64,000 nucleotides of DNA from Polytrichum commune. Taxonomy: Eukaryota > Streptophyta > Polytrichopsida > Polytrichales > Polytrichaceae. The translations under genes and the position numbers were made by a program. The stretch spans positions 45,337,554-45,401,553 of the forward strand of contig OX485803.1 in the NCBI GenBank assembly GCA_950295325.1, in the 5' to 3' direction. Below, piece by piece: positions 9,299-64,000 of the stretch. Below the pieces are notes generated by a model. It saw nothing but the letters and a program-made list of their open reading frames with translations. It ran no database searches and was not told where the DNA came from. Positions within the stretch are counted from its first letter, which is position 1. Every line of letters begins with the position of its first letter.

Positions 9299-9306
9299 AC
9301 AACCAT

Positions 9307-10119: not shown

Positions 10120-10127
10120 ACAACCAT

Positions 10128-38010: not shown

Positions 38011-39645
38011 AGACAAATTCTGTGAATGGGCATGAATGGATATCGGAATACCCAAGTGTGTAGTGACTGGATGCCCAAAAAATCCAAACTGAACCCCATA
38101 ACCTTCAAGGCCCTAATCCAAGCTACTAACATAAATTATCGAAACCAACCTATACCAACCCTACATCAACACGAACCATACACCTATCTAGGAATAAACC
38201 TTGCACCCTCACTCAAATAGAAAACACAAATAAATACCACTACAGCTAAAGTAATCAAACAATACCAAGCTCTCGTTACATGCCCATCAACTATGAAACA
38301 AAAAATCAATATGGCAGATACAGTCATACGTGCTGGAATAGCATACAACTTCTACGCAGTACCATATTCCATACCGGCTATCAAAAAACTTGACAAAAGA
38401 ATCATAGCACTCCATAAAATGATATGCGGAATATCCAAATGTACATCTAACATTGCTACACAACTCCCGCATAACCTATTCGGCATCGAAGCATTCTCAC
38501 TACAAAATGCCTATTTAAGATGTATTGGAGAACAACTACAAAATGCCCTAAATGATAAAGGAAGAATTGGCAAAATCTATGCCGGCCTAATACAACACAT
38601 ACTTGCCAAATATGGAGGATCTAAGGATATAACCCGCATTAAATACCACCACTGTGTCAGATCACCTATCACTATAACATTATTCTTGCTCAAGCATAAA
38701 GCCGGAGTCCACCTAAAAAGTACAATAAACAACTTCCTATTAAATTCATCCCCACTCGAAACTGCGTGGACTCAAGAAGCACAAGAACTACACGGTCTAA
38801 GCCCAAACACTTCACTTAAATTACTACACAAATTGCTAGTACATAATATAATAACACTAGACCAAATAACCATACCTAATGGCACCACTCTAATGAACTC
38901 AGACGAATTTAAAATCTACCACTCCAACCCTTCTAAACTCATCAAAAGTGTACTAAACATTGCTAACCAACTATTTTGTCATCCACCTTGTGACCATGAA
39001 TGCCCCCTAACATGTCAACACCACCATCCACCACGATCCCTCAAAACCAAATACATAATAAGACACTACAACATCCTACCTCATTTACCGACTCCCCCTA
39101 TACACCCTCCAAACCCTCCAAACCCTCCCATCCCCAATCTACCCCCTCCTCCCAACAACATGATTAAAAACCCCCGACAATTTCCCATACACAAAATACT
39201 CGATCACAAACAACGACAATCCAACGACCCTAACAGAATAAAAAGAACAGTCACATCATACTTATGCCAATGGACTACAACAAATAACAATACATATAAT
39301 AAATGGCAAACCCAAAGAGACTTATACCCCTATTGTGATGCCAACACAATCAACCACAATACCGACCTACTCTCCCAATACTACACGGGAAAACAACACA
39401 AACATTTCTTAAATATTATTAATGCCTACTTCTCCATAGAACAACAAAGAGACACAAGATACGTCACACCTACCACAATTATCCCACTGGCACACATTTT
39501 TATTAATGAATGCAATCCAGAAAATGACATCGAAACAAATTCTGACACTATCCAAATACAATTTGACGTCGCTCACATATACGAAGATAGGGGCCGACAC
39601 CTCATCACCATCCCAAAAACTAGATTAATATGGTTATGGCAATAA

Positions 39646-40257
39646 TATCAACAAACAAAACATTCCACTCACGGACTAGAACCACCTACCCAATCATTCG
39701 AAACTGAAATTGTATGGCTATACCAAAGATACAAATATCGCATTCCGAAAAATGACCCACTCAAACGAGCCCAACATACAATTCCAACCCCAATATTAGA
39801 TCTCCTAATAACCACATTTAATATCAACCACTCATATTTCTCATCCCCAGTTACATGCCCCACACAATTCACCCAATTCTACTCACCATTCTCACGAGAC
39901 ATAATATTTGGATCCCTCGGGAAAGCGTTTGACCATAAATGGCAAGGAATTGGCTACGCCCACCCCCACAACGCAACGGAATTACAACAAGCTATCCATT
40001 GGGCTCGCCTGGCAGCCAAAAATGACCCATATACAATCACTATACTCATATCACCGGATACTAATTGGTACAAAAACTTCAACCCATACATAGGTCCATT
40101 CCAAGACACGCACGTTATCGCCCACTTTGCCGCCGACACGATCACATATGAAGAACCCACAATACCCCCAAAACTCAATACTACAAGGAAAGAACCATCT
40201 ACCATACAAATATTCTGCATCCATCACCAAACCAACAACATTGGTACTTACGAACAA
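39646..40257 (+). other. ORF2 segment between RT and RNase H, possibly methyltransferase-like
   Basis: In the same frame as the flanking domains. Contains FGSLGKAFDHKWQGIGYAHP, then WARLAAKNDPYTITILISPD and TNWYKNFNPY. The pattern FGSxGxAF...HP followed by a hydrophobic strand resembles phage-type N6-adenine or PCIF1-like methyltransferase layouts. The catalytic (N/D)PP(F/Y/W) motif would be replaced by AHPH. This is a tentative reading. Confidence 0.3.
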
Positions 40258-40469
40258 ATGAAGCAACTCAAGGACCTAGCAAATAATCTCCAAATAACAC
40301 AAAGTCACACCCAAATTGCACCATCCACCCCTTCAAATACCACTGTTAACCCCAGTAAAAAATGGTCTAAATTAAACTACCCACAAATAGTCGCACATAA
40401 CACCACACTTGCCTCACAACTCCCAAACTACCAGACAAATCTACCTCTAAAATTCCACCCACAATTTAG

Positions 40470-40900
40470 CTACTACACTGACGGTTCCTTTATAAAACCC
40501 AAAGAAATTGCCCCTGGAGTATGGAGAAGAGAAAGAGTTGGATATGGTATTTATAGCCCCAAAGGTTTAAATATTACCAAAAAACTGCATGGGCATCAAA
40601 ACATATTATGCGCAGAAATGATAGCTATATACAAAACAGTAAGAATAATCAATACACAATATCCTAACGAACCCGCATTCATATTCACAGATAGTTTAAA
40701 CGTATTATACCTACTCAACACACAAATTAAACACCCCACCCTTCATAATAACCACCCAGACCAAACCACACTTGCCTCCATGGTACAAATTCTTCAACAC
40801 CGGACACAACCAATCACATTATACAAAGTTAGAGCACACGTCAACATTGACGGCAACGAAAAAACAGATAAATTAGCAAAAGAAGGATTAGAATTAGAAC
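40470..40900 (+). pseudogene. RNase H domain of LINE ORF2
   Basis: YYTDGSF (first Asp), ILCAEMIAIYKTV (Glu), FIFTDSLNVLYLL (second Asp) and GNEKTDKLAKEG (last Asp) give the full D-E-D-D set of RNase HI. Presence of RNase H places the element with I-, Tad-, R1- or Dualen-type LINEs rather than typical plant L1 (although some plant L1 lineages carry an archaeal-type RNase H). Confidence 0.85.
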
Positions 40901-41179
40901 ACAAAATTGCCACACACTCATATGAACATGCCCACGCCACCCCATACTATTACCAAAAGGATGTATGGGCCTCGATGATAGACGTTCCAGACAAAGGCCC
41001 AGTCAAATTTTTAGAGAAACAAATTAAAAAATATGATAGGGAAAATAACCTAGCAATCATGGCCACACAAACCCCCAACACTTGTAAATGGACAAAAAAT
41101 GTAGACATAGACAAAGAGCTGTCGAACGAATTTTGGGAAAATCCTTCAATCACCGACAAACAAAATCATGCCTCATTAA

Positions 41180-41930
41180 ATTCCGCACAGGAAATTACAT
41201 GGGCAATGCTAGGAAACAGTTGTTCTTCAGCTGCCAAAGATATCCCTCTATTACGTGCCCCATATGTAACTCAAACGAACCAGATACATGGCTACATGTA
41301 CTACTTACATGTAAACATCAACATATACACTCACTTCGAGTTAAAAGACATAACAAAGCAGTTGGGGAAATTAGGAAACTTCTAATCTCATCCGAAAAAT
41401 CCCGATGTTTTACTCTCATGAATGCTGGCACCTTCAATAACAATCCTCAAGAAAACACAGTTCCCAATTGGCTACTCCCTTGCACATGTGGTACACAAAG
41501 ATGCCACTGTAACGCAAGATTTAGACATGATATCCTTTGTGTTAGGGGACTACCATATCAAAACGACCCTCCCGTAGACATTGACCCTAACCTCACCATA
41601 CAATTTATTGAATTCACATACTGCAATGACAAATTCTCCCCAGAAGCAGTTGAAGCAAAAAATATCAAATACAGACCACTAATTGCTAGTATCGCTTCCA
41701 GAGGATGGAAAATCGAACCACTTATTGTCATCACTGCTGGTGCCAGAGCTACTGCTCACATCCCATCTATGAAATTACTCAAGACTAATTTCAAAATGCC
41801 TATGCCTACCATCAAAAATACATTGAAAAATATTAATACCATCGCAATACAATATGCCATGTCTATCCTCCTCCACAAAAGGAGAATAGAAAACCACCAA
41901 CCGCTTCCCCTCACTCTAGACCCCCCATAA
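41180..41930 (+). pseudogene. CCHC knuckle and restriction-like endonuclease candidate of LINE ORF2
   Basis: KFRTGNYMGNARKQLFF leads into a CCHC knuckle (CPICNSNEPDTWLHVLLTC), a Cys-rich patch (PCTCGTQRCHC), then DPNLTIQFIEFTYCND and an AKNIKYRPL segment, then LIVITAGARA. The D...(I/V)EFTYC...K..KY.PL layout is that of the PD-(D/E)xK nuclease found at the C-terminus of RLE-type and Dualen LINEs. It is one frame away from the RNase H, by an indel near 41,170. The assignment rests on motif pattern only. Confidence 0.55.
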
Positions 41931-43264: not shown

Positions 43265-44436
43265 TCTTCTCCCACGGGTAGATCACTCTAAGGCATTTTT
43301 GTGCACCACGTGTGGCTTGGGGTCTTTTGTTTTGGGGCTATTTACCTTCAAGGGTTGAATTAAAGCCTCCCTAAAATTACTTAAATTTCAAAAATGGCCC
43401 ATTTGTTTGCACCCTTCCATTACTTATAGTGTCCAAGTCACTGCAATTTTTTGTACTCTATATCTCGGGGAGTTCACTAGACATGTATATATGTATACAC
43501 GTGCGTGACAAGGGTATTTATTCAAGGGGTATTTAATTATCCATCCTTAATTTTTTGTACCATATTATTATATAATTTGCTAATTTCTTTTTTTAAATGA
43601 CCCTATAATTACTTTTAAATTTGATGAAGCTCTAATTTTAAGCTAGGTATGTTCATTATAATTATTTGATTTTGCTCCAAAGGGTTTAAGAGCATTCAAA
43701 GTACTAAGTCACCAAAATCCAAGGCATAACAAGGTTTTACATTAAGAGTGTTCATAAACAGTTTCAACCAACAAAATCAGCCCATGTTCCTCAATCAAGT
43801 TACACACACAATTAAACACAACGATACTGAGTGTCAAAAAAAACAATTAAAAAACCAACAACAAAGCAAGCAAAAACAGGGTCCATGCAATAATGTAGAA
43901 GGGTATAGAGTTAATACTACAACATCCTGCTTGAAGCAGACAGACACAAGACCAACCAAAACTCCTCTAATTTATCTTGAGAAATTGTTTCTAGCATTTA
44001 AAAACACTAGCAAAATTGTTCATAGCAAATAAAAGGTGTCATGTTCACCTTGCAAAACAATTCCTAGCTTTTAAGAACACTAGTATATAATCAACAAATA
44101 ACGCATGCCTTTAATATCTGTAATTTGTTACGTCCCAACGCCCCAACTTCATCGCCATAGCCTTCAACGAGCTGTCTGCAAACGTTCTCCAAACTTGCAC
44201 TCCAGCTTCTTCATTGCCAAACATGTGGTGGAACCCTAGCGGAGGTGGTTAAGCAACAGGGACACCATCTTGCAAATTGATGTCACATGGAAATCTGCAA
44301 AGTCCAAAACGAGACAAAAAAGAGGACAAAAAGGGAATAAAAGGAAAAATAAATAAAATTCCTCTTAATGCCTTTTGAATGTCATCTAAATGAAACCAAA
44401 GTACTTTCTAGGAAAAACAGACTAAAAACATTGTTG

Positions 44437-45733
44437 CTAAGTCTGTCTAGCAACAAATTCATCCAGAGCCATTCCATCTACATGATCAATCTCATATACC
44501 TTAGTCAAAGGGTCCCTACTTAAAGTGACCGTGGATATAATGGCCTCAACATCTATCCAAAAACAATTTGTGTACTCGTATTTGAATTTGAACCTCCCGG
44601 ATGCGCTAATGAACCATTGCAGCAAAACCATGAGGGTAGGTTGGGAGTACCCTTTCTTACCATACTTCACCTGTGGCTTATTCTGAAGGTCGATGGGTTG
44701 CCTCGAAAGTCCCCACTTCATTCCTGACTGCCTTCTGATTTTCAGCACACCGCCGAGCATCCATTTTCCCTCATCCCCCCCACTCACACAACTTATGGGT
44801 CTACCTTCCTTAAGTAGATTGGCCCTTGTTCTCTTTTGGGCAACCTTCACAGCAGAGGTGAGCATTGTGCTAGTCCGTTGTTTGAAGTAAACACCGACGT
44901 CCGATCCAAGACCCAACAACATAGTTGTAGAAGACGATGTTGCAGTTAAATAATCGTCGTTGTTATTGAAGTATATAGAATTTCTCACCCGGGTTAATCT
45001 ATCCTTCGACAAGAATGGATTTCCATTCAGTTGGGAGACCAATGTTGACTTGTAAATTGAGTGGCCTTCGTAAGTCACAATTGACGAGATATTCTGTTGA
45101 ACTAGCGTTGTCGGAACTTGGTCATCATCTACGTCCAACATCTCTCGTAGGACATCACAAACCTTGTCTTCAACTTCGCCAACTACATCCACGTAATCAT
45201 CAACAATCTCGTCTTCCATTGTTTCGAGAGGGAACATGTTTATGTCCGGATTCTCGGCACATGTTGGGGCATTTGAAATGCATTGGTGGAGCACCTCTGA
45301 ATCTCCATCTTCTCCGGGCACTAGGCATCTTGTAGGGTTGTATGCCAAATGCTTTGGATCCAGCCGCTCCAAGTTCCATGGTTTTAAAAACCATTCTTTT
45401 TCACGAGCGTGGACCCGAGGGGGCCATATTTAGGACCCGAAGCACTTTCCGTGCTTCCTTTAAACCTTCTTTCAGAGCAGCGACTACATCAACATCAAAT
45501 GCGATGGAAGAATAATCACCAAGGTCGCATGGGTCCTCGCCATCACGGAGAGGGTGCAGTTGGGCCCACATATTCGTTATCTTTTTGTGCATGCGGCCGA
45601 ACTTGAGTCCGTTTTCTCCATACTCAATTCCCGACAGTTGGTTCAACGTATTAGCAGTACTCACAAGTTCGTGAAAGTCGTAGGCCCATTCTAATCCAAC
45701 CATTCCTCCAATTTTTGAAAAAAAATATCTCAC
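44437..45733 (-). pseudogene. Transposase gene of the inner element, C-terminal part
   Basis: Two overlapping frames join at about 45,410 (one-base shift: GPRS then EKEWFLKPWNLERLD). The first reads ELVSTANTLNQLSGIEYGEN... and NMWAQLHPLRDGEDPCDLGD. The second is 311 codons: an acidic segment (EDEIVDDYVDVVGEVEDKV), then a C-terminal domain ending GRFKFKYEYTNCFWIDVEAI and IDHVDGMALDEFVARQT. The last 130 residues are matched by a diverged copy at 50,705-51,172 on the plus strand. The conserved end suggests a folded domain of unknown function. Confidence 0.7.
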
Positions 45734-45953
45734 ACGAATATGACCCAGTCAAGTGTAAGGGCACTGCCAGATTTGGATACATATCCCAAAAGTGCACAAT
45801 TAAAAGTACCATGAAGGGGCAAGACACTTGTATGTCTAAAAAGCATTGTTGACTTACAAAGTGTTCCGTTTGGGTTAGAGGTTTAGAATTTCCACCACTC
45901 GAGTGATAGCCATGGTGAAACCATAGTTTCCATAAACAAAAAAAAAATGATAC

Positions 45954-46853
45954 CTTAGACACAAGAACCAATCGTCCTCGCAAATCAAGAGAAGGTGAAA
46001 AAAACATATCGATATAATCAGAGCAAATTTCTAGATACATCTCTGTACCTAGAGTACGCTCACTATGGACATCTACTAAAGTTCTAAGATCATGAAGACA
46101 TTGTCGTAGTTTCCGCTGACATATCCGTTGGGCGGACGCCCAATTCTGTCTATCGGTCCTTTGTACAACTTCTAGTTTCAAGCCATGCTAATCGTATGTG
46201 TATTTGTTGTACACTAATCCAATGTGCTCAAGGCAACATATATCTTGACCTAGATAGAGAGTCCAAACTGGAGAGTCAAGTGGGTTAATTAATTTTTTTC
46301 CATTATGGATATAGTCTTGGTCATGAAGACCCGAAGCATTCCCCATTGAATCTAAGCTAGTGGATAAAATCCAGCCTTCCTAGTCAATCTTTAGTCGAGA
46401 GCCAATGGTGCCCTTATAATCTTGCAGCATTAGTTGCCTACGTCTACTATCACCATCAGAAGCGTGTCCTACAATTGGACCGACAATGTCTACACACTTC
46501 TTTTTCCACAGAGACTCTGCTACGTTCCATTGATTCCACACCCAAGCTGCATCGAAACAGTTACAGATAGAATTTACGCAAAGGACAAGGCGGGGCAGTT
46601 TGTCGTGGAGTGGGTTTACCACTAGAACCCTGGCAAAACCCCCCACCTTATCAGTTCGAAACGCATCCACCACTTTATTATATCCCTCCTCACCAATCCC
46701 TACCGTAGGTTTATAATCAGAAATGCATCTATGATCATTCTGATGACCAAAAAATCCAGCCAACGTATCAAACTTTGCTTCCCAAGTCACTCTAGCGCGG
46801 ATTTTTGTTTCATCCTCGGCAATGATAACGGGAATTGTGTGGGAGTCCAAATT
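45954..46853 (-). pseudogene. Transposase gene of the inner element, probable catalytic part
   Basis: One frame broken by TAG at 46,380-46,382 and 46,188-46,190. It holds PVIIAEDETKIRARVTWE, DTLAGFFG, GPIVGHASDGDSRRRQLML, a segment around HNGKKLINPLDSPVW, then DRQNWASAQRI and LRTLVDVHSERTLG. The DE-(T)KI motif followed by SDGxSRR is reminiscent of the first and second catalytic Asp regions of P-element/THAP9-like RNase H-fold transposases. That link is a guess. AAG|GTATCA at 45,954 is a plausible splice donor, with an intron to about 45,75x. The upstream border is the insertion site of the 6.4-kb element. Confidence 0.65.
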
Positions 46854-47079
46854 CAACGGAAAGACGGAAATACGGAAATACGGATTCCATTTCCGTATTT
46901 TTCCTTGCTTATCTGAAGGTAATAGGGTCTCTTAGGTTAAAATTACTTGTACTAGGAAATAGGGTATTCTAACTCCGCCTTGTGCGGTAAAACGACTTAA
47001 AATAAGTACTATGACCGGTCCGTCAAATAGGATGGGCGGACCGTGTAATCATGATCCGAACCATTGGTCCAGACCAAGT

Positions 47080-47194
47080 AACGGACGCGCCAAGATTACC
47101 CAACGGACCGGAAGTGGCGGTTATAACGGGTTTATGACGGTTGGGGGAAGACCGTCGGAAAACCGTTATAACCGTTTTCCGTTAACCCAAACGG
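47080..47194 (+). promoter_or_regulatory. Cluster of AACGG (MSA/MYB core) motifs upstream of the 690-aa ORF
   Basis: Seven AACGG/CCGTT cores occur within 115 bp (47,080; 47,102; 47,125; 47,163; 47,172; 47,179; 47,190), including the palindrome AACCGTTATAACCGTT. AACGG is the core of plant M-phase-specific activator elements bound by three-repeat MYB proteins. A GATATTTA at about 47,206 could be a TATA-like box. Confidence 0.45.
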
Positions 47195-47454
47195 TAACAG
47201 GGGAGGGATATTTAGGAGTCCCTTCCTTCTCCTTCCCACTTTTTTCTGATTCACGAAAGGCAAACTTGCTGAGAGAACGAGTGGTGAGGTTGTTGTCATT
47301 TCGAGCCGCCAGCAGTTGGATTGCTGGGACTCAACACTTTTCAGTCACCGGCAGTTGGCTTGCCGGGACTCTGTAGCAATTAGACGGAAGAGAGGGAATC
47401 CGGAAGAGAGAGAGAGAGGAAGTGTGCAAGCCGGAAAGTTAGAAAGGGAGGAAA

Positions 47455-49527
47455 ATGCCGGAAGCGTGGGAAGAGGAACAGAGGGAACCCATCCTGATTC
47501 CGCTCAAAGCCCTCACCCCTGCAATTCCGAGGGATGATAGGGAGCTGCAGGAGCTCGCGGAAGATCTCCGGGTCATGGGCTGTGCTGGGCTGCTCTCCAA
47601 ACCCTGGAACCTTAGAGCGGAAGATACCCTCCGTGAGTTTAAGTACGAGAGAGGCAATCAGTGGCTAGGCACGAAGAGGAGGGATCCGGAAAATTGGACT
47701 CCGGATACCTGGAACAGGGTCTACGGGTTTCCCAGGGGGATTGCAGAAGGGTGGGCCGGCCGCCGCGACGGCCTATTCGCCGGGAAGTTCAGAGGGGACG
47801 CGGATCCAAAGGACGGATTCCACCCTGGGAACTGCCGGAATCTTAGGGAGCGGAGAGTGTTGGAGTTTCTCCTGCCCATTCTCAATCCGGACAAGCCGAA
47901 GTGGATTAGCCTCACCATGGCTAACACACTGTTTGGTGCAATGTCCGGAGTCCGGCCGGTGAATTGGGGCCTGATCATCCAGGAGATAGTCGGACGGGCC
48001 CTCCCCCACATCGGCCGGAAACCCTCCTTTCTCTCCCCCTTCATTTTGCACCTCTACCAGCATTTCGACTGCATCTTAGCGGAGGAGGAGGACCTGCTAA
48101 CGATAGCGGCGGACGAGGTCACCTACAAGCTACTCCCGGAACCCGGAGACCTCGAGACGGAGACTTCCAGCGACCCAATCATTCCGGAAGCACCTCCCTC
48201 TTCACCCGGAAGCCCGCCGCCCACCATCTCAAGGCCACTCTCTCCCCCTCCTCCTCATCATCATCCGGAACCCGGACCCAGCCGGGAGACCACATGGCGG
48301 AATGTGGATCTATCCGCTTGGGACTTTCCGGAGAATCCCTTCAAACGGGTCCAGGAAGGGATGGAGGACCTGCAGAACCAGTACTACCGGATGGAACACA
48401 TCGTCCGAGGGGCGAACGAGGCTCTAGATGACTGCGGGCCTGGAAACATCCTTCGAGAATTGACAAAGAGGGCGGACAGGAAGGAGCTGGAGCAGGTCAG
48501 GACGGAGAACGCCCATCTCACCGTGCAGGTAGCGGCCATGACTCAGGAGCTGAGTCAGAAGAGCGAAGAGATCCGGAAGTACCACGCAGAGCAGGCAGTG
48601 CTCTTCAGCCGGATCCGGGAGTTGGTGGGGCATCCAGCGGAGATCGTCAACAAGGCGCATCTCTACAACCGGATGATGGAGTCCGGAGAGCCCGCTTCCG
48701 CCAGGCATATTCTTCCCATCCTCGTGAAGTACTCACGGACGATGAAGGACCTCCTTGCGGAAATCCAGAGGGTGGTTCCACCAAGCGGAACACCCCGGCG
48801 GGTACTCTATCCGGGTCCGCCTGGGTCACCAACCGGAACCCTCTATGAGGTAGTTGGTGAAGTGGCCCTGGTGCAGAATCCGCCGACGTCTGCGGGACCC
48901 AGCCAGCAGGGAGGCGGCTCGCAGCCGACTAATTCCAGGAGGGCTCCGGAACAGGTCCGTTCTCCCCAGGTGAGGAGGAAGAGTACCGGGTCGGTCCGAT
49001 CCGGGAGAGGCCAGTCCCCGGTTCCACGAAAGTCGGATCGATCCCGGACTCCGGATAGGGCTAGGACGCCGATCCGGCACCAGGCTTCTGATCGGGAGGC
49101 AACTCCGAGTAGGGGCAAAGCCCCTATGACCCAAGCCTCGCCATCGTCTCCTCCGGACTACCAAATGGTCAGTCCCTTTCCTCCGCCACCCTCAAGGGCG
49201 GCCTCCAACCGGGATCCGCGGACGGCTTCGATCTCGGGCGGACGGAATCCGGAACAGGGCACCGGAAGCGATCCTTCTCCGATCCGGAGCCTCCGGATGG
49301 GGGCAGTTTCCGAAACCCCAGGGACAGTTTCCGGAACACCAGGGACCGGGACACCGCGGACCGAGAGAGTAGCGGATTCGGAGGACAAGGTTGCCCTGTC
49401 TCCGAACATGAGGAGGATGCTCACGCGGCTGCAGAAGGCATCGCTGGGAGGGGGCTCATCCGCCGTCAACGGGTTAGGCAGTCACTCAAAGGAGGGATCG
49501 GCTCCGAAGAAGCACCGCTCTTCTTAG
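47455..49527 (+). CDS. 690-aa gag-like protein of the TCCGGA-rich element
   Basis: Open from ATG 47,455 to TAG 49,527. The N-terminal 235 residues form a Trp-rich globular region (WLGTKRRDPENWTPDTW, FPRGIAEGWAG, then NTLFGAMSGVRPVNWGLII) whose layout recalls the plant-specific 'putative plant transposon protein' domain. Residues 236-280 are Pro-rich. Residues 285-430 are helical with a coiled coil (EQVRTENAHLTVQVAAMTQE). The last 220 residues are a basic Ser/Pro/Arg-rich tail (RKSDRSRTPDRARTPIR) suited to nucleic-acid binding. No protease, RT or integrase is present. The intact frame and strong codon pattern (many TCC-GGA, CCG-GAA) suggest recent activity or constraint. Function is not established. 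Confidence 0.65.
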   Translation: MPEAWEEEQREPILIPLKALTPAIPRDDRELQELAEDLRVMGCAGLLSKPWNLRAEDTLREFKYERGNQWLGTKRRDPENWTPDTWNRVYGFPRGIAEGWAGRRDGLFAGKFRGDADPKDGFHPGNCRNLRERRVLEFLLPILNPDKPKWISLTMANTLFGAMSGVRPVNWGLIIQEIVGRALPHIGRKPSFLSPFILHLYQHFDCILAEEEDLLTIAADEVTYKLLPEPGDLETETSSDPIIPEAPPSSPGSPPPTISRPLSPPPPHHHPEPGPSRETTWRNVDLSAWDFPENPFKRVQEGMEDLQNQYYRMEHIVRGANEALDDCGPGNILRELTKRADRKELEQVRTENAHLTVQVAAMTQELSQKSEEIRKYHAEQAVLFSRIRELVGHPAEIVNKAHLYNRMMESGEPASARHILPILVKYSRTMKDLLAEIQRVVPPSGTPRRVLYPGPPGSPTGTLYEVVGEVALVQNPPTSAGPSQQGGGSQPTNSRRAPEQVRSPQVRRKSTGSVRSGRGQSPVPRKSDRSRTPDRARTPIRHQASDREATPSRGKAPMTQASPSSPPDYQMVSPFPPPPSRAASNRDPRTASISGGRNPEQGTGSDPSPIRSLRMGAVSETPGTVSGTPGTGTPRTERVADSEDKVALSPNMRRMLTRLQKASLGGGSSAVNGLGSHSKEGSAPKKHRSS

Positions 49528-49977
49528 TTAGGAGAGTAGCTAGATTAGTTAGGCAGAATAGAGGTAGGTAGGTAGGACTTAGGAGTTTTTGAAGATGAGT
49601 AATAAAATTTTCCCTTGGGTGTGTCAGCGGAAAATCCGGATCTTGATCCGGGAAATCCGGGAGACCGGGGGTAGTTAGGGTTTTCCTTAGCGGCGGCCGC
49701 TTGGGCTGCCGCCCTCGGTTTAGGGATTTTAGGGCCTCTACTTAAGGCTGAATAAGGAGTTGGGGAGGGGTTCCTTCTCCATTGTTGTATTGTGATTACT
49801 CCTACTCTGAATAAATGCCTTAGTTCCTCACTCCTTGACTTCTCTTTAATGATGTTTGTGTGAACGATCCGGAGAGTGTTAGCGGAGGAGAAAGAGGGCA
49901 TGAGGGATAGGAGTTCCGGATAGGACATGAGAGAGGAGACCCGGATCAGATCCGGTTATTGCCTTGTAGATCCTCTC

Positions 49978-50165
49978 TGAGTGTAGTGGGAGGGAAACCT
50001 CACTAATCCGGTGGGTTGGGTAACGTCTAGGTGGGATAGCCGCTGGGAAGATTGGGTGAGATCCGGAAGGGATCCGGACTTACGCCAATCTGATCTTCTG
50101 AAGAGGTCCCACCGCCCTTAGACGGACCTATCCGGATGGTGGTACGGATCGCCCAGTTAGCTCAG
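49978..50165 (+). repeat. Direct repeat in the 3' region of the TCCGGA-rich element, unit 1
   Basis: Aligns with 52,576-52,750 (GAGTGTAGT.GGAGG, GGGTAAC, GATCTTC.GAAGAGGT, GGTACGG). Without the 2.3-kb insertion the two units would lie nearly in tandem. Confidence 0.7.
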
Positions 50166-50704
50166 ATTTAGTAGAATCCAAGGTAGAGGTAACCGGACAG
50201 ATCCGTCGGAAGGAGAAGGGAAGGTCCGGATCAGTAAGGATTCCGGATTGGAGGCCACCTCACGGGGGGGTGACTATCGGAATTTTAGAAACCACGTGAG
50301 ATAAAAAAATAGGGTCAATTTAATTCATTGAGGGTAAAATTTATAACTTCGTTAGATCTACCATAGCTTTGGAAATATGTCCCATACATGATTATATATA
50401 AAATAGGGCGGTGAATAATTCCTCCATTTTAGTAATCAGTAGAAAAAAAATAGGATTATAGATATTGGATCCCCCCAAATGTGTGTAGTAGAATCAATAG
50501 AATAATTATGGGTTTGACTACTTGGATGAAGAATTGTGTAAATTTTGTCCAAATTTGAATGAAAAGTGTTAGTATGGAGGGAAAATGTTGTGGATTTTTT
50601 TGGGGGAAGGAACATTGTGACTTCTCAACGGCCCTTGGGTTGGCTTAGGGTTTGGACAAGCATAGTGGCGTGAAGGCGTTGAAGTGTTTGGGTAGGGTCT
50701 TGGG

Positions 50705-51172
50705 ATGGATTGTGGAGTGTATTTTATGCAGAGAAGTACGACAACTATCTCATCTACAGTTAAATCAGTTGTTAGAAGGACTAGGGGAAATCCTTCCAAA
50801 AATCTGCAACCTACGTGTGTCCTCAATGGAGTTGACCGGGGCACATGGTGTATAGGACGAGTTCAGAAAATGAGACGAAAGGTAGGTACAAGGTGGGGCA
50901 GTTGCAGACATCCTGTTGATCTTCTTAATCGGGAGGTAAACAAAGGTTAAAAAACAAATATTGTCGGATCTAGTTTTATGGTCTATCTTAATTATTTTTG
51001 AAAAGTCCCCGGACACTTTAAATTCAAATATGACCACTCAGATTCTATTTGGGTTGATGTAGATAGCATAATTTGCACAGTGACTATGTCATTTGATGTA
51101 GAGAGGGATGTCTTTGAGCTTGATCCGGTTGATGGGAACTCCTTGAATGAATTTGCTGAAAAGTCAACATGA
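50705..51172 (+). pseudogene. C-terminal transposase fragment, homologous to the inner element's transposase
   Basis: RRTRGNPSKNLQP...GVDRGTWCIGRVQKMRRKVG is matched in the 44.4-45.4 kb gene by KRTRANLLKEG...GGDEGKWMLGGVLKIRRQSG. HFKFKYDHSDSIWVDVDSII...DPVDGNSLNEFAEKST matches RFKFKYEYTNCFWIDVEAII...DHVDGMALDEFVARQT. A stop and frameshift lie between the two blocks (50,950-51,010). The end of the protein, including the stop (51,170-51,172), is preserved. Confidence 0.85.
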
Positions 51173-52500
51173 AATTAATAGTGATGTAAGATATTATTTG
51201 TTACTCCATATCCATATCACAAAATGACTAATGTTCTTTCTAGTGTACAAATCATGCATGATTGTTATGGAATTTGTTTTCTAAGTTAGTAGGTGTTATT
51301 TAATCTATGAAACTCTCTTGCTTCATTCAAAGATATCGTTTATCAATGAGCATTGGATGGTTGAAGTGATAAACATGTACTAAACTTTTCAAATGCATGA
51401 AGATGATGAGTTGATTTTCAATCCAATTTCGGAGGAAGCTAGGTATTATGCTTTCCTAAACCTTGAATTTGCACATTTTCTTGTTGTTTGGTCTTGTATA
51501 GATTTCTGAATGAACATGTTCAATTCTCTAATTCAAAAAACCTAGTTTTCAAGCCATGAAATTATGAGAATTAAGATTGGAATGTAGTTCATTCTTCATA
51601 AATTTTTGTTATTAGTTTTACTTGTCTTGCTAGTAGTGTCTAATATGCCAACATTCTATTCATTACCTTTTTGCTACAACAACCTTTTGTAGATGATCGA
51701 TGATGCGCTACAACATTTGGCACCTCACCATGGTAGACTCAGAGGATTGTGCTTTGCCTTGGAGGATACGTGATGGAGTGGCTGGAGACTTCGAAGGTTG
51801 CCCGCCTCATGCCAACAATTAGTTTTAGTTATTTGTCATCATTGGTGTTAAACCTCTCTAAAATATTTTGTCTTATCATGACATTGTAGAGGATATCGAT
51901 ATGTACCTTGACATGTATCGGAGGGTGCATAATTATATCCTAACCCTTCACATTGTAAATAGTTGGTACAAGGTTGAATGTGTTTGTGAACACAATTAAA
52001 GTAAATGTTTTCAATTTTTGTATTTGGTTTTTTCAATTGAATGCAATCTTTTGTTTTGGAGTAGATAATTATGCAAAATTTCATGTCTTATGACAATTGA
52101 TTATAATTCTTGTTTTGTTCTATCCGTGTTTACAACTTGTCTATGTTAGCTTGTACATTTTGTTATCTTCATGTTCATTGGTAATCTTTTAACTAAACTC
52201 CAAGTGTTATTGGTTGTGTTTTGAATGGCATTTTGAACGCTTTAGCATTGGTATAACTAATTGAAACCGATTAAATGATAAGATGGATGGTGTGGAACGT
52301 TTGTTGCTCACATAGTTGATTTTGCAATGCTATAGTATTCCGTTCATTATTTGGTACTTGTACGATTTATAAAAAAGATATGATGCCAAAAATTGGTCTC
52401 TCTAAAAATTTACAAATAAACATAGGGTGCTTAAAAATATGTCAAAGTAACTTTATATCTACAAATAGGGAGGGAAAAAATACCGAGAGGTGCATAAATA
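51173..52500. other. Non-coding remainder of the 2.3-kb transposon
   Basis: AT-rich, no coding recognised. The last 70 bp contain the subterminal GGGGTATTTAAT motif also seen inside the left end of the 16-kb element (43,53x). Confidence 0.5.
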
Positions 52501-52575
52501 TCCCCCCATTAAATACCCCATTATCGCACGTGGTTACAAAATGTAAGGGGGTGTGACCCCCCCGTGGGCCACCTC

Positions 52576-52750
52576 CGGAGTGTAGTAGGAGGAGATCCTC
52601 ATTGTTCCGGATGTCCGGGTAACATCCCGGTGAGACAGCCGTGGGAGAGACTAGGCAAAGGTCCAGAAGGAATCTGGACTTAACTGATCTTCCGAAGAGG
52701 TATCATCACTGGTGAACGGGACAATCCGGAAAGTGGTACGGGTCACCTAC
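52576..52750 (+). repeat. Direct repeat in the 3' region of the TCCGGA-rich element, unit 2
   Basis: Partner of 49,978-50,165; see there. Confidence 0.7.
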
Positions 52751-53226
52751 TCATCCCGTCGAGTCAGATCTCCGCTCGGAATCCGGACTCCTCTGGTCAC
52801 TATGGTCCCAAGAAACAATCCGGATCTCTCTGCGTGACCTGCCAAGACGGACCTGATCAATCCGGATTGGTTGTGAGGGAGTTTCCGGATTCCAATCTTA
52901 TCAAGGACGTCTTCACCAGAAGAAACCACCTATTCTAGAGGGTCGAAGGTATAGGGGTGAGTAAGCATTATAATTAGTATCTAGAGGTCCAATCCGGAAA
53001 GGCACACTCCGGAAAAAGGTTAAGAGTGTCCCCAAAGACCAAAAGTCTGGGAACTAGGGTTTCCGGAAATTTGGCTAAGGAAGAGGAAATAAGCAGGTAC
53101 GGAAAGTTCTAGCCCTCCTACACTTCACAAAATCCCTGGACGATACTAGGGTCATCCGGACAGACCGGATTAGGCACTTAAAACCGCCAATCCGGATATG
53201 TTGGTGTTCGCGTGCTCCCACAAATT

Positions 53227-54800
53227 GGACCTATGATTCCGTGGGCAGCTTTTGCCTCTCGGTAAATTTCTGCCACAGACTTAAATATAGACGCATGCTC
53301 ACCAAGTACAAATTGTACCCCCTTTCTATTATCCCTTTTTACTGTGGACAACGTGGGGCTAGCAAAGTTCAAACTAAACAAGTCTACCATCGTACGCCCC
53401 CCATAAATCTTCATAGCTTGAGCAAACAACTTGTTGTTAGTAGAAAATCAATACCCAATTTTCTTACAATTCAAGTTCCTAGCCACATCTTTCATAAAAT
53501 CCCACAAAGCAGGCCTACCACCAAATGCACCTAAACGATGTGCTGCTATAATATTAGTACAAAACTTTAGAACATTATGATCCTGAGACGCCATTTTGGA
53601 TGCTTCTCTAAGTGTCGGTCTCTTCACCTTTAGCTGGACAATTCGTTGCTTTGCAGCCCAATGACACATTTGTTCTAAGTGCCATTTCTTAGACAGTTCT
53701 TGACTATGACCGTGGAGTTCCCCTTGCGTCAAATAACCGAATCGCCTACCTAGACTAGTACATCTGCTCCCCCTTTTCACTAAAGATCTATCCTCTCTAA
53801 CTACCCTCATTTGGAAATCCTTGTCCTGCGGTATTCTAGCACAAACTGAACAAGTCAAGTTTGGGAAGGGTTCACCAGAGCTTGAAAATCAAGCATATTC
53901 TCTATGACGGAAGGCTCCACAGATTTCTTTCAACTCACCTTCAACCCTCACTGTACATTTCAAGTTGGGTTCGGGATACCACTGGGAGCCAACGTGGGAA
54001 TCATTCAACAAACCTCCAATAGCATACGACTTCCCACTGTACAAACAATGAGCATCTCGAAACCCACAACAAAAGAGTGCAATTAAATTAGTTTGAGATA
54101 TAGAATTATTCTCACCTGGCTGGCAATTGCTCCCGGAGTTACTGAATCCAAAGTTGTGCAAGTCCTTCTCATTGTGGGTATTCGTGGTTGAAGATGTTTT
54201 GCTGCTAGGTCGACCCTTCTTCCCAGATAGCAAGGCAAACGTCCCGGATTTTGCTTTGGCCGATTCCTCTATTGCCATCGCATGCTTTGTTCTTCCAAGA
54301 TGACTTCGTAGGTTAGCCTCCAAGTTTTTCTTCGGTGGGCAAAAGCTGCAGCAAGTCCCACAAAAGTGGCATCGTACCTTGTACCAGAACTCTTCAAATC
54401 ATCCGCATTAGGGTCTCCAACGTGGTGAAATGGCTCCTTCCCTCCTCCAGCTACAACCTCCCTGTTCACCATTTGCAAAATCTGAAGGCCATCGCGCACT
54501 GTTTTTTTGTGATCACTGATTGTCATCACAATCGGCCAAGTCTTTGTTGAAAGGGATTGTGGGTGATCGCTGAAATTAACCCCTTTCCTTCGGCACCAAT
54601 TTCGAACATGTTGGTTGCTTAGGAGGTGGCTTTTCCTGAAATTGGAAAAAAGGTTGTTGATCGTGATCTTGGAATGATCTCCAGAACTCCCTCCGCAATC
54701 TTTACTGCTGTGGGGCCAAACCCCCCACCCTTAAGCGTCCGTAGTCCGAGTAGTGGGTTTGGGCTCACATTCCTCCGCGGTATTGGATTTGGACTTGGAT
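53227..54800 (-). pseudogene. Transposase gene of the inner element, zinc-finger and central part
   Basis: Minus-strand pieces in order: NNLFSNFRKSHLLSNQHVRNW..., ISDHKKTVRDGLQILQMVNRE, a one-base shift near 54,380, then VRCHFCGTCCSFCPP with RSHLGRTKH (a C2H2-type finger). These are followed by a Ser/Lys-rich linker, CTVRVEGELKEICGAFRHRE, LTCSVCARIPQDKDFQMRVV, AAHRLGAFGGRPALWDFMKD and FASPTLSTVKRDNRKGVQF. It ends at HGIIGPI where the 6.4-kb element is inserted. Possible introns (for example 53,880-53,890 and 54,060-54,120) and real disruptions cannot be told apart without a second copy. Confidence 0.65.
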
Positions 54801-54911
54801 GAGTCCATAGTGCAAGGTTCACCCTTCAAGTGGTCTTGGATTTAACTGGAATTTCACTTTTAACAACTCAATGTACGATTTCAATACGTATGTGGAGAAT
54901 GCACAAGTTAA

Positions 54912-55124
54912 CTATGTTATTTTAACCTCCTTATGCTCGGGTGCTATTTTGTCTTTGTTTGCTTCTAACGTCCATCCGGCTGCTTTAGCTACACAAGCCC
55001 TTAAGGATATCCCTCTCCTAAATGGAGTCCGTGCCGTTGACTCTATACTACCACTTGAACTATCACTTGTGTATTCCGTATCGCTACTATAAGAGGTCTC
55101 ACTTGGTGTCTCCATACCGTACAT
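54912..55124 (-). pseudogene. Possible further exon of the transposase gene
   Basis: 70-codon frame with an acidic Ser-rich start (SETSYSSDTEYTSDSSSGS) and then RACVAKAAGWTLEANKDKIA. It has plausible protein character and lies in line with the other minus-strand exons, but has no recognisable domain. Confidence 0.35.
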
Positions 55125-55399
55125 AAGCCTTTAAGTATTAAGAAATACTTATGTGACTTATGTCAATCTCTCCCTCGCACCTTTGGTCTTTGCTTCCTTT
55201 GTCTTGCCATCGCGAGAGTGCTCCACATTCTCCATTAAGTTGTGCACGTGGTTTATTTTTAAAGAGAGGATGCAAGTGTAAAAAAAAAACACTATTCTCT
55301 ATAGTCAATCTCAAATACATTTACTTGTGAAAGCCACACATAACACTAACTAGCATAATGTAACTAACTACTTGTCTATGAGCTAATTAGGTAGGCTAT

Positions 55400-55605
55400 C
55401 TACTAAGCTCCTTCATGAACCCATCTCTTTACTTTCTAATTTCATGAACCCAGCTCCTTCATAAACCCAGCTTCTTAGCTTCTAACTAAACAAACCCAGC
55501 TCCTTCATAAACCCAACTCCTTCATGAACCCAGCTCCTTAGCTTCTAACTAAACAAACCCAGCTCCTTCATAAACCCAGCTCCTTCATGAACCCACAACT
55601 TTGTA
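55400..55605. repeat. Minisatellite
   Basis: Imperfect tandem copies of AACCCAGCTCCTTCATAAA/GAACCCAGCTCCTTAGCTTC, organised in a higher-order unit of about 75 bp that repeats at least twice. Confidence 0.8.
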
Positions 55606-56760
55606 GTTGTAATCCCCAACTACCTCACTAATTATTCAAGCCCTTAACTAATCTTCCTACCTAATTTCCCTAATTCTACTAACAACCCCTTTCTAATCAC
55701 ACAATTCTTCTCTAATCCTAAAATCCTAAAATCCTAGAGAGGAGAGGGGGAGAGAGAATTTCCTAACTTCACTAAGACTAACTAATCCACACAAGTATAT
55801 TTTTGCACTCATCACAACATCAAGTGCTCAACTCTTAAACATGGAACTTGCAACCACGTGTATTCAAAACATGAACTTTAAGTACCACAAATTGGAATCA
55901 TGAATTAACTTTAAAATCCTTCACGTCAACACTAATTCTACCAAGAGGTCAAGTCCTCTTCAAGGCTAACAAGCCTTGGCTCTCAAACTAAAAACTAAGC
56001 ACACACATGTGCTCCAATATGGCTTCCCACACCCACACTTATAACTCGTGGGGTGCCTTGGAGCACAAAGGAAAGAGAGGATGAGTGAGGGAAGAATGAG
56101 GGATTATATAGTAAGCTTGAGGGGGTGAGCACCCTCAAGGCTCACGATAAGCCCTTGAGATTTCCTCCTACTTAGTAGGCGCCAATCCTATCTTCTAAGT
56201 CTTCCTCCCTCAAATGATCAACAAGGATCCTAATTCGAACATTTAACTAGCCTTGGCTTTCTACCTACCACACTTTACCAAACTTGGGATGCTTCAACCC
56301 AAACTTAGCCTCCTTCGCTTTCCGCCGCCATAACTTTCTCCCCTTACTTTCCCAAATCGTCGCTCACCACTTAATTCAAACCACGATGCTTAACTCGTGA
56401 TTTGATTGGTGCTTTGAGAATTTGCTTATCCTCCACCTTGCATTCTTCCTTGGGCCTTCCCCATTAAGTGGCCATGATGAGGTGGTCCACTTGTGCGCTC
56501 CATGTGATCCTCCATTCATCCCAATTCGAATGCACTTGCCTCTTGAGTCACTTTGGTTGTCTCCATCCATTTGTACTAGCCTACTCACTAACTACTCAAT
56601 CCAAGTTCTCCTTACCTATCCTCATTCACTCAAATCCTTCCGAAGGTAAAAACACAATAACAACTCACATCCTAGCCTCTTACAACATGGTACTTCTAAG
56701 ACTAACATTTCATTCTTTTTATATTTTTGTGAAGTAACATGCTACTTCAAAGTGCATCAA
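55606..56760. other. Gene-free part of the inner transposon
   Basis: C/T-rich sequence, possibly intronic within the transposase gene. No domain recognised. Confidence 0.4.
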
Positions 56761-57408
56761 CTAACGTTTCAAGGGTCTAAGACTAAATGTGGGCACCCTT
56801 TTGGGCTCACAACTGCACTCTTCACAAAAAAATTTCACAACCCCAACCCCATCCTTATCCCACGACTTTAGGCACCACATGTGATCTTCAAGGGAGATGA
56901 GTCCCAACTCCTTCCGCAACTTTATTTCGCCTCTTTGGTATCTGTCCATAATCTCCGGGGGCACGAGAGTGGACTTTAGATGGATTTCTCCACCTGATTC
57001 ACCATGGCATGTACGCGCACCAATTTGTGAGAAGCCAACTGGATCCACAATGTGCTCTCCTAGGCTTGAATTTGGAGGCTCCTCGCTTCCCAACCCATCA
57101 ACAAGGCCTTCGATCGAATCCAAAACTACATCCTCAGGAAGACGTTGTCATTTGCAGGGAGGTTCTTCATCTTCAGATTTGATGACATAAACCGTGTCTT
57201 GGATTGTGTTTAAATGCTCCAACTCCTTATTTAAGCGGCATTTCTCCTCATCATCCCAAAAATCAAATTTCCATTGGAAGACAGTCCACTCTTCTAACCT
57301 CAATCGCAGCTTTGAATACGACTCCCCCGGATCCGCATCAATTGGCCCAACCCACTTCGGCTTATCAAATTTGTCTTGGAGGGAATACAACTTCGTCTGG
57401 TACGCCAT
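56761..57408 (-). pseudogene. Transposase gene of the inner element, N-terminal exon
   Basis: Starts at an ATG (57,406-57,408) with MAYQTKLYSLQDKFDKPKWV and runs in one frame to 56,761, interrupted by a single TGA at 57,148-57,150. It includes EEWTVFQWKFDFWDDEEKCR, PPEIMDRYQRGEIKLRKELG and a Cys-rich VVKFFCEECSCEPKRV segment that may bind zinc. This is the likely start of the transposase. It would need splicing to the exons below 55 kb. Confidence 0.55.
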
Positions 57409-59690
57409 AACCCAACTCTAAAAAATATTCCAAACCCTAACACACGCACAACACATTATGATCAAAATATAGACAAAACATACAATAAACCCTAAAACCC
57501 TAAACCGGAATCCAGGTGCACTCAAAGACAGGGAAGAACGGCCACTAAAGTAAAACTTGATGCATTGTTGGAAATTAAAAGGTTCGAGCCAACAAACTGC
57601 AGCTCTAAGACTCACAATCTAAAAAATCTAAAAAATAACTTCTATTCATGAATTTGTTACCAAAAGATTGTTTAATTTTATGTTTTTTCTACCATGAAAG
57701 AGTGGATTGGTTCCTTACTGAAAAAATTCACAATCACCATTCGAATAGCGGTGAAAGCATCTACCATTGTTTGCCTCCGTGTTCGCAGTCAGTAACTTGC
57801 AAGGCTTGTCACACTCGCAGCGTACAACTCCAGTTGTTTCTAATGCTGCCAAGTAGAAGCAAACACAGTAAGATAATTACTATTGGATATGTCATGCTTG
57901 CCATGGATTTTGAGCATGATGTTGTTACAAGCCCAGATCTCCATCTCGTCTGTAAGAGTGGTTTATTGTGACTCACCAACCAACCATAGAAGAAAGATCT
58001 TGTCAATTAGACGTGGTGATCTCCTTCACCCAACAAGCAACACTTATAGTCCTAGTACTATCTGCCTACATACTTAGAACATGTACAAACTAAGTAGATT
58101 TCCATATGGTGTTCTAACTAACTTGGAGTCACTAACTTGGAGTCACTAACCTGGTCTATCAGTTCCTTCACAAGGGACTTAATTACCATATAAGTAATTC
58201 CAACACTAGCTACATCAAGTGAATCCATACATTACGCACAAATCACTCACAACTTTCAGTACAAATGAAAGCAATTCAGTATCTAGCTGCATGTTTCGCA
58301 AACTTTACTAGTGTTTTGCAGTTACAAAAGCTACAAAAACATCAACAAAACACGATGTAATGCACTGGAATTTATATTAATCGAGGGAGCTTTGTCAATA
58401 TTGTGAGTAAGGGCTTCGGGTTTTCATGATATCCCTGTTTCAGTAAACCCTAATTGAAGATTGGGACACAAGAATCAAGCTTACTTGTTTTGATGAGGGA
58501 CACAATGTGGCACAACAGGCTCCAATGTATATGACTGGCCCCAATACACTGAAGCTAAAATTCTCAGCGAGTTTATCAACCCTAAACCGCCTACAAAATG
58601 CCCTATTTCTCAATCCTAAACACAACATTCTGACCCCAAGAGTACTGGAGGGACGGATTCCAGCTACCAATTCGAGTGAAATGGAAAGACGGAAGGTACA
58701 TGAGAGGGTAGGCTTCAAGGCAGAGTGTCCGCCAGAGCAGCATCATGTGGAAGAATGAGACACCCCAGCGGATGAAAGAAAAAAAAATTCCGGTGTTGGC
58801 CACAGAGACGGAGAGTTCGTCCACAACCACTCAGTGAGTACACTACTCCACCTAAAGAAGAAGAAAAAGCAACCAAATGGGTGTTAAGCAACCAGATGTT
58901 CACGGAGATTGATCATGCACCATGGCAGGCACGACATTCTGAATTGACGGATAACTCTAACAAAATTCTCCAAAAATATCATACTGCTGTGTAGATCAAC
59001 TCCAAATCCCTCTAAAAAAAACAGCGTGAGAAGAAAACTCTGTTGATCAGCCATGAAGAAAGCTTTGGGAACCCTAAACGGATGGCAACCGACGGTCTGG
59101 ACTCAGGTTTTGGGAGTGAAATGGAACTTACAGGCAAGCACGAGTTCCAAAGCTGGACTTGTGTGGTCGTTATGAAGATTCGACCTCCACTCAAAGTAGA
59201 GAGTGAAAATGACCTGCACAGGCCGCTTGCAAACCCCACCTCTCAAAAAGTCAACAGCGTCGAAGAAAAAACTCTCGCCAACACTGAACCGCAAACCCCA
59301 CCTCTCAGAACGGTGAAAAAAAACTCTCAAAACCTAATCCTCCAGGAACGTTCTCCCCCAATTTTTCCTAAACCCTAATCCGTCTTCCGCCCTCATCAAT
59401 CTTTCATCCCATTTTTCAACTGAATCGACGTAGTTTTTCATCCAAAATCTTCCCGCCTTTGAACTCAAAGGACAGCCTATTTCAAAAAAAACCTAGGATC
59501 CTTAAATCCTACAGTATATTTTTACAAATATTTTAAAAATATGTGTTATTTGTATCAAGCCTATATTATTTATAATACAAATTTTATCATACATACTCAC
59601 CTATATTACTTCTAAGAAAATTCTAAGTTTTTCCTTTTGTGAATATAAATTACCCTATATTTTCCCGCACGTTGTTTTCTAATATTATCG
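57409..59690. promoter_or_regulatory. Upstream region of the transposase gene with telo-box-like motifs
   Basis: No convincing gene. AACCCTA motifs occur at 57,432, 57,487, 58,445, 58,579, 59,070 and 59,370. AAACCCTA (telo-box) is a common plant promoter motif, and two copies lie within 90 bp of the transposase ATG. A 14-bp tandem (AGTCACTAACTTGG, about three copies) sits at about 58,117-58,153. Confidence 0.35.
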
Positions 59691-60345
59691 CAGTGAACTC
59701 CCCGAGCTCTATGTTCCTTTTAAGTAATAAAAGCTAATCTACTTCCTAATGCAATTGACGAGTGTTGAGGGAAAGCATGGAAACAAAGAAGGGTGCAAAC
59801 AGTAATACCATTGCAAACAAAGTTATGAAGAAAACACATAGGAGACCATAGCAAAGTAATACCATTGCAAACATTGTTATGATGAAAACACATAGGAGAT
59901 GCCAGCACAAATACCATAGCGGTCATTCCAATGCAAGTGACCAAAAACACAGAGCATAGTAAAGCGGGTTTAGAATTTACAATTTAAGGTGGAGTCCACA
60001 ATTTAGGGACGACCCCAACGACGGCGCGTTCCCTTTTCATTCATTTTTGGACAGACGGAAATCCCAATTATCATCCATCCCCGTGAGTCCTAAACCCATT
60101 TACATACCATACTAAACATACCTTCTAGGATCCTTATCTTCAGCCCCTATATTAATTTTACAAAAAATTAATGGCCCACGTTTTATTTCCATCTAACTTA
60201 CTTATAATGGGATTGTCTACATTTAATGGCCCCTTCATTATTTGGAATTCCTTTATAATTTTTATTTCAAATGATTTTAATCCTCTCTATATTATGCCGC
60301 ACGTCGTTTTTAAAATGCACTAAGTGATCTACCCGTGTCTTCTCC

Positions 60346-62371: not shown

Positions 62372-63858
62372 TCATTTAACGTGGGTTGCTTCTTCTGCGA
62401 TCCGAGCAAGGTTGTCTTTTGCAAAAGTTATGTACTTTTGAGGGATGGACACCGATCCACTATGATTTTTCCGTGGTTTCCATGCTATGAATATGGAATC
62501 TGTATCTATCCAAGATGGACCATGCTCAGAATCCACCTTCCACCGAAAGTTAGGGTTTGTATCCCAGCCTGTATAATGCCGAACAACATCTTCATTCCGT
62601 GATGTCGGTCGGTAGTACTCTACTTGTATTTGTCGAAAATGAGGGCTGGAAGTTACAAAATTTGGTTTGGACAAAGCTCTTGCCACCCACACTGGCTTTG
62701 CATATGTCTCATCTCCAGGACGCAAAATGAGCATATAACCTTCATGACAATCCACTGCAATGCGGAAAGATGGTGGCAGACGACTACTAGCAGGCCCCAC
62801 GTAATGGTCGTCCACATCAAACTCCTCTCGAACCTCTCCATTTCCCAAAAGACTAGCCTCCGAAGCTTGTACATTGACACGTGTTTGTGGCCAAAACCCA
62901 TGCCTTAAAGTAAGGGGTGTATCTTCATGAAGGTTTGCCAAAGCGCCACGAACACGTGTCCAATATTGTATCCAACTTCCGTAACGAAGCCAACACGATC
63001 CACCAACATCCGCTACCCTCAAACTCTCCCAATATTGTATGAAGCCTGATATGCCTTTACAAATGTCCTCCAAATTCTTCATGGATATTGGTTTGCAAGG
63101 CTTAGGCTCTCCGTCAGGCAACATCGTCCTTCCTTCCCCATCAACACGCCATACAAGGAGACCCTCCGGCGGGCTCCAGTCTTGTGATGTGCACAACAAC
63201 TTGTATTGCATGGCGGGGACACCATCGTCACGCACGTAGAACCGAAATTGTTGTGCCTTCGTATGCCCGATCAATCGGTGAGCTCCGCTTCGAATATATG
63301 GTTCTATAAATGCCTTGAAGTCTGGAACCTCCTCAATCATATGTGGGATGACGGGAATGTTCTCCAAATCCATGTACGACTTCATCAACAATGGGATTGT
63401 TGGAAAATCCTCCTCGCGCAACTTCATGCTCCACCGCCCAAAGGACGCATCAATATCATCGTGCGTGTGGCCTACCAATAGAAAGGACACAAAAACCTCC
63501 TTGAAAATGCCTTTCGCAACCAACAACGACCAATATGCAAAAACATATCTACTTTTATTGTCCTTCGCACAATTGTCCAATTGGACACGCAGAGTTGGGG
63601 GCAAATTCTTGGCAATCACATCTTCACTTGGTGGCTCCGGCAATGAGTGCACGCATACATCTCTTCCATCCAAGACCGCTTCATATAGAGGTGTTGATCC
63701 CGAGTTTTCAAATAACAATCTTGATGAATAGGACGGCGGTTTCTCCAAATCACGTAAAAGCTTTGCAAATGACCCTATCGTGTGGTTTGAATCCGCCGGA
63801 TACAAATCAAGAGCATAATGAGCATACTTGACATCACCATGTCCATGTGCAATCATCC
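62372..63858 (-). CDS. 3' exon of a DUF7869-like protein gene (partial)
   Basis: 494 codons, uninterrupted, ending at 62,372. Upstream on the minus strand a good acceptor (GGCTTTGCAG|GG, 63,859) precedes the first ATG, so this is a downstream exon and the 5' part lies beyond the window. The N-terminal part contains VQLDNCAKDNKSRYVFAYWS and LLVGHTHDDIDASFGRWS. LDN...N and GHTH(D/E)D(I/V)D are the hallmarks of the DUF7869 family, whose acidic residues resemble a DDE-type transposase core. The rest includes SGFIQYWESLRV and a BAH-like region (YKLLCTSQDW and later FIAWKPRK). It may be a transposon gene or a domesticated host gene. The lack of stops argues for recent activity or constraint. Confidence 0.65.
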
Positions 63859-64000
63859 CTGCAAAGCCAACGCAATGGTTTAATATTCAACTATGACACC
63901 AAAAAATTCACCTGCTGTACATCTATGGTCCCAAGTACAAACCTAAAGCACAAATTTGTGTTTAGGTAATGCAATGCAATTGTTATCAAAATCACATGTA
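63859..64000 (-). other. Probable intron at the window edge
   Basis: Sequence upstream of the acceptor at 63,859 shows no coding frame continuous with the exon and has a T-rich tract before the AG on the minus strand. Confidence 0.4.

Follow-up and report, generated by a model that had tools for sequence, protein, structure and literature searches.

The 64,000-nucleotide window analysed here, from Polytrichum commune (contig OX485803.1, positions 45,337,554 to 45,401,553), contains five insertions stacked one upon another: an 814-bp element with terminal inverted repeats (TIRs), designated M1; a large TIR transposon, L2; a unit with TG...CA ends, L3; a short TIR element, L4; and a putative solo long terminal repeat (LTR). 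Target site duplications (TSDs) are present at all five levels, and empty-site counterparts, which a preliminary description of this stretch had proposed seeking at each level, were found for four; for the outermost, M1, the evidence is its duplication. The nest is ordinary in kind, and was quite probably built largely by a lineage of DDE-type cut-and-paste elements together with two LTR-type insertions; it is the transposase lineage, not the nesting, that is the unusual part. The nest also ranks bursts of several element families relative to one another.

Structure of the nest

The coordinates of the nested elements and their relatives are listed in Table 1. The preliminary description had recognized the nesting, which is real, but counted four levels; the solo LTR had been overlooked, as had the kinship among the three TIR elements. 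Its borders stand for M1, L2 and L4, and sister copies place those of the third element elsewhere. All genome comparisons refer to 408 Mb in 64 contigs, at least seven of which are 42 Mb or longer.

Table 1. Components of the nest and related features (window positions unless a locus is named)
Feature	Position	Strand	Evidence or detail
M1 left TSD	43265-43272	.	sequence; TCTTCTCC
M1 left part	43273-43463	+	non-autonomous TIR element, ends CACGGGTAGATCACT
L2 TIR transposon	43464-59706	-	ends, TSD, gene comparison; 16,243 bp as standing
L2 transposase gene	~57411 to 44440	-	tblastn using the intact relatives P0003 and P0004; carries stops and frameshifts and is split by two insertions
L3 TG...CA unit	46838-53222	+	ends, sister copies; TSD AATTG at 46833-46837 and 53223-53227
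L3 694-codon stop-to-stop frame	47443-49524	+	ATG at codon 4
L4 TIR element	50261-52566	+	2,306 bp; ends CACGGGGGGGT; TSD GGCCACCT at 50253-50260 and 52567-52574
Remnant of C-terminal part of L2 transposase family, within L4	50696-51154	+	tblastn, 48-49% identity to P0003/P0004
Solo LTR	54709-56811	+	2,103 bp; TGTGGGGCC...GGGCTCACA; TSD ACTGC at 54704-54708 and 56812-56816
M1 right part	59715-60337	+	
M1 right TSD	60338-60345	.	sequence; TCTTCTCC
Uninterrupted M1 sister	9307-10119	-	TSD ACAACCAT at 9299-9306 and 10120-10127
Palindrome TGTTTGTGAACACA	9564, 51981; L005:5472, L007:1896 (-), L008:5488, L011:5764		

M1 spans 43273-60337, with 191 + 623 bp of its own sequence, and its borders and 8-bp TSD were confirmed. 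When the two parts are joined and aligned to the uninterrupted sister, a comparison that had been suggested as a check, they are collinear across three blocks (89.8, 92.5 and 96.5% identity), except for the stretch 60003-60110, which does not align. The sister had been taken for the exact pre-insertion sequence; it approximates that sequence and differs by an indel and substitutions. The joined 40-nt M1 site, which is the empty site for L2, occurs at 692 places in the genome with no more than three mismatches, and a reversed-pattern control occurs at none.

With its two insertions removed, L2 would measure about 7.7 kb. Its inverted ends, CTCGGGGAGTTCACT, are identical over 15 bp, and its 8-bp TSD (CTCTATAT at 43456-43463, CTCTATGT at 59707-59714) holds with seven of eight positions matching. 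The splitting of its gene, also described earlier, was confirmed on the reverse strand: L3 interrupts it immediately ahead of a conserved AEDET motif and the solo LTR interrupts it earlier, near residue 204 of P0003. The intact relatives run uninterrupted through both points and provide the empty sites for these two insertions. The window copy of the transposase is degraded, with two stops and some invariant motifs lost (GSYSCEIFFF).

L3 had been described as a 6,367-bp element flanked by a CAAATT duplication. This is incorrect: the unit has the ends TGTGGGAG...CTCCCACA, a 5-bp TSD and a length of 6,385 bp including L4 (about 4.07 kb without it). CAAATT is ruled out as the target duplication because all ten sisters with both flanks start TGTGGGAGTCCAAATT, which places it inside the unit. 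A perfect 5-bp duplication flanks eight of these ten, one matches at four of five positions and one has none (because the sisters end TTCCCACA, duplications were judged by eye; the eight perfect ones were also computed).

The borders and TSD of L4 proved to be as first given, and its ends agree over 11 bp. Eight sister L3 units of 4,036-4,085 bp, chosen for their perfect duplications, all lack L4, and the two L3 parts in the window abut at one point in three sister comparisons. Full-length matches to L4 are 98-99% identical.

The duplications and empty sites support the insertion order M1, L2, L3, L4, as the preliminary description had it for M1, a transposase element, a gag-like element and a 2.3-kb element. 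M1 arrived first and L2 inserted into it; L3 and the solo LTR then both entered the L2 gene, and L4 later entered L3.

A probable solo LTR overlooked in the L2 gene

The first 600 bp of the 2,103-bp insertion recur at approximately 100% identity in at least 39 other places (40 scored of 1,343 first-look candidates), and among the matches listed there are six same-strand pairs 9.2-9.8 kb apart. In the one pair that was read, 9.4 kb apart, one LTR matches the other exactly over 2,202 bp, and the first is followed by the primer-binding-like sequence TGGCGACC. Against these LTRs the window copy shows 99.4% identity over 2,103 positions and 99 gap columns, which perhaps reflect repeat contraction. 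Short imperfect direct repeats lie within the copy at 55406-55602.

TG...CA ends, a 5-bp duplication and full-length relatives with two LTRs are all features of LTR retrotransposons, and we infer that the insertion is a solo LTR, derived from a retrotransposon family in which full-length elements measure about 11.4 kb; it would have been inserted by a retro-type integrase with a 5-bp stagger. Weighing against this, the outer flanks of the full-length pair do not match (CCCGA/GCTTG), so that pair may be recombinant. An intron as the explanation for the 2.1-kb gap in the L2 gene is ruled out by the TG...CA ends, the ACTGC duplication, the contiguous relatives and the copies genome-wide.

Because it splits L2, the solo LTR is younger than L2, and nesting gives no order relative to L3 or L4. 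Its high identity to its relatives suggests that it is later than L3 too. For L3 the values are lower: its best relatives reach 92-98% in the ends used for searching, and L061 and L062 reach 94-97% in the parts compared. Identity to relatives is a weak clock.

A proposed family of TIR elements and its putative transposase

M1, L2 and L4 all have related ends of the form C[A/T]CGGG... and duplications of 8 bp; L2 and L4 also carry one transposase gene family. Of the 14 TIR copies that could be seen at both ends (those with one visible end were excluded from the count), 12 have perfect 8-bp duplications and two match at seven of eight positions. Five short relatives of L2 consist of its left ~400-760 bp fused to its right ~210-630 bp through four different internal-deletion junctions, and all five have perfect 8-bp duplications. 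The ends, the duplications, the common transposase family and the four deletions make M1, L2 and L4 look like members of one superfamily.

When the genome was searched at the protein level with a 150-residue core piece of L2, 125 candidates yielded 106 matches, of which 16 fall in stop-free frames 1,100 aa or longer. Twelve regions were retrieved initially, and a further nine were added for the core. Two copies, on contigs C5 and C4 (8,426 and 8,423 bp), are 99.5% identical in different flanks, with perfect TSDs (GAAATCAC and ACCATTGC), stop-free frames of 1,518 codons and inverted ends CTCGGGG... in which the G-runs vary in length. The motifs AEDETK, GHxSDGDSRRR, QDxxHxxKKLxNP and GSDxCExFFS are invariant across nine long frames, a set that includes one with just 29% identity to the first, and nearly all of these motifs are retained in a ten-core alignment that includes a further clade. 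The ~1,500-aa protein has a conserved D...D...DxxH...E arrangement with three invariant acidic blocks. Nonsynonymous divergence (dN) between transposase families is 0.19-0.55, with synonymous divergence (dS) saturated.

Judged from these motifs, the protein likely works as a cut-and-paste transposase of the DDE type (RNase H fold). Such an enzyme would cut at the C[T/A]CGGG ends and insert them into the target through cuts staggered by 8 bp, and M1, L4 and the short L2 relatives would be internally deleted passengers that it moves. The group appears recently active; near-identical copies, an uninterrupted frame and fresh duplications make that activity directly testable.

Several observations weigh against this account. 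No transposase remnant was found within M1, and its assignment to the superfamily draws on its ends, the size of its duplication and a palindrome that its sister has in common with L4. For a third near-identical copy, L009, the right end was not found. The dN/dS of 0.82 between the two near-identical copies is based on very few changes and is uninformative, and a single-sequence fold of the window core segment reached a predicted local distance difference test score (pLDDT) of 35.5, so that the RNase H assignment lacks fold support.

The palindrome TGTTTGTGAACACA is common to the M1 sister, L4 and four transposase loci (Table 1) and perhaps serves as a signal in the 3' region; at L005 it may sit in an M1 copy inserted there. 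The same families occur together elsewhere too: at L002:1244-1757 there is an M1 copy, and an 8.4-kb transposon copy lies five bases past its duplication.

Relationship to known superfamilies

Comparison with Pfam gave no credible match. At E <= 5, nothing came up for five long frames apart from Thioredoxin_4, whose cut-off was not reached (E 0.038 and 0.52); at E <= 10, ten transposase cores matched three unrelated families (best E 0.081); and ten pieces of the window gave weak coiled-coil and other matches, all below cut-off. The scans of frames and cores contained no P-type RNase H, GTP-binding, THAP, hAT or KDZ (Kyakuja, Dileera, Zisupton) match. Among solved-structure sequences, one search returned a troponin match at E 1.5 and another returned none. 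Genome profile searches with PF21787, for the P type, and with PF18758, for KDZ, were empty, and since 14 control genomes were silent too in each case, absence is not shown by them. Viral contigs scanned with the transposase had 81 pattern stretches and no confirmed relative, and the end motifs with the core motif had no match in the open-access literature.

We put at a little under even the chance that the TIR elements belong, as divergent members missed by the Pfam models, to a superfamily already known to make 8-bp duplications (P, hAT or KDZ). In excerpts of two papers, 8-bp duplications are typical of P elements (PMC7776569) and of hAT and Zisupton, with Dileera likewise at 8 bp (PMC12730594). 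Likeness to the P superfamily (THAP9-like) further extends to the order of acidic residues and the long insert ahead of the last one, features that resemble hAT enzymes as well. The lineage differs from P in having no Pfam P or THAP match, in its length of ~1,500 aa and in its C[T/A]CGGG ends. Its acidic residues are spaced 119-121 and 240-242 apart, against 73 and 228 in P (D230, D303 and E531 in the excerpted text of PMC7776569). With hAT it has in common short TIRs and many short non-autonomous copies, and it differs in having no Pfam hAT domain. The ends of hAT elements are of the CAGGG type, which those of the lineage do not resemble. KDZ is similar in the duplication size of two of its members, and differs in that no KDZ match was obtained among the proteins scanned. 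The CMCT group (EnSpm/CACTA, Mirage, Chapaev, Transib, Plavaka) has, according to PMC12730594, duplications of 2-5 bp and CxxC and HxxxH between the second D and the last E; the lineage has 8-bp duplications and, by inspection of alignment A2, no conserved CxxC in that interval.

The DxxH block resembles DxxHxxKxxRN, which we take to be a P-like transposase motif. Together with the acidic order it suggests a DDE enzyme from the wide assemblage to which P and hAT belong, a placement that draws in part on the residue numbers of P in the excerpt cited above. The lineage could be assigned to no known superfamily from Pfam, solved structures, the open-access literature and one genome; its novelty is bounded by that coverage, and Repbase or plant proteomes may already contain it.

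More tentative, and on balance doubtful, is the combined proposal of an undescribed superfamily, defined by C[T/A]CGGG ends, 8-bp duplications and a DDE transposase of ~1,500 aa that combines conserved Cys/His segments with a C-terminal domain of its own, that would be old, diverse, recently active and the source of hundreds of short passengers including M1, accompanied by a 4-kb TG...CA unit that lacks LTRs and has a single conserved gene. If the lineage is new, annotation would call its autonomous copies unknown genes and its short copies generic hAT-like miniature inverted-repeat transposable elements (MITEs).

The nature of L3

A solo LTR is the likelier reading of L3, which has the TG...CA ends and 5-bp duplications that are hallmarks of solo LTRs and would have been inserted, with a 5-bp stagger, by a retro-type integrase. 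It is unlike solo LTRs in its length of ~4 kb, in its 694-codon frame under purifying selection and in that no full-length parent, with two units around a pol region, was found among the units examined, most copies lying outside that sample. The frame has no credible Pfam match. Frames of 707-715 codons match it in four of eight fetched units and are broken in the other four; among five open frames dN/dS is 0.18-0.41, and 31 of 150 scored protein matches (window included) are in stop-free frames of exactly 694 codons.

These frame data are the starting point for an unlikely alternative, that L3 is a mobile 4-kb unit without LTRs, spreading with one conserved gene. It gains from the spacing of copies: among 40 listed left ends none has a same-contig neighbour within 30 kb, against the six same-strand pairs of the other LTR family. 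Beyond 20 further right ends there is no common sequence, one identical pair excepted, and perfect 5-bp duplications flank 11 of the 15 other units for which both sides were read (one matches at four of five positions, three are unmatched). Two closer same-strand pairs were checked. On C3 the pair is two separate units with their own perfect duplications, TCGCT and TTCCC; the pair on C5 tells against the alternative, as one unit has no duplication and the right end of the other was not found. Of three 694-codon units fetched, one, at L079:2179-6285, has a duplication and sits inside another copy of the same transposase gene family as that of L2, and one has no recognized right end. The third, L078, likewise tells against the alternative: it has no duplication, and the TGGCGCC that comes after it could be a primer-binding site. 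Hundreds of candidates lay outside the matches listed, and we know of no mechanism for retro-type insertion without LTRs; both points count against an LTR-less unit.

That the whole nest is an assembly artefact, a chimeric contig, is extremely improbable given duplications at five levels, empty-site counterparts at four and not a single N in the window.

Other features of the window

Outside the nest, a LINE-like (long interspersed nuclear element) element at 34872 (+), within ~34245-41927, has RVT_1 (37385-37981) and RNase_H (in 39646-41382) domains, and its upstream frame bears a 2A-like motif, CGDIEPNPGP. A 504-codon frame at 62375-63886 (-) has a DUF7869 domain (E 8.4e-42), and a frame at 16731-17369 (+) has a multicopper oxidase domain and is laccase-like.

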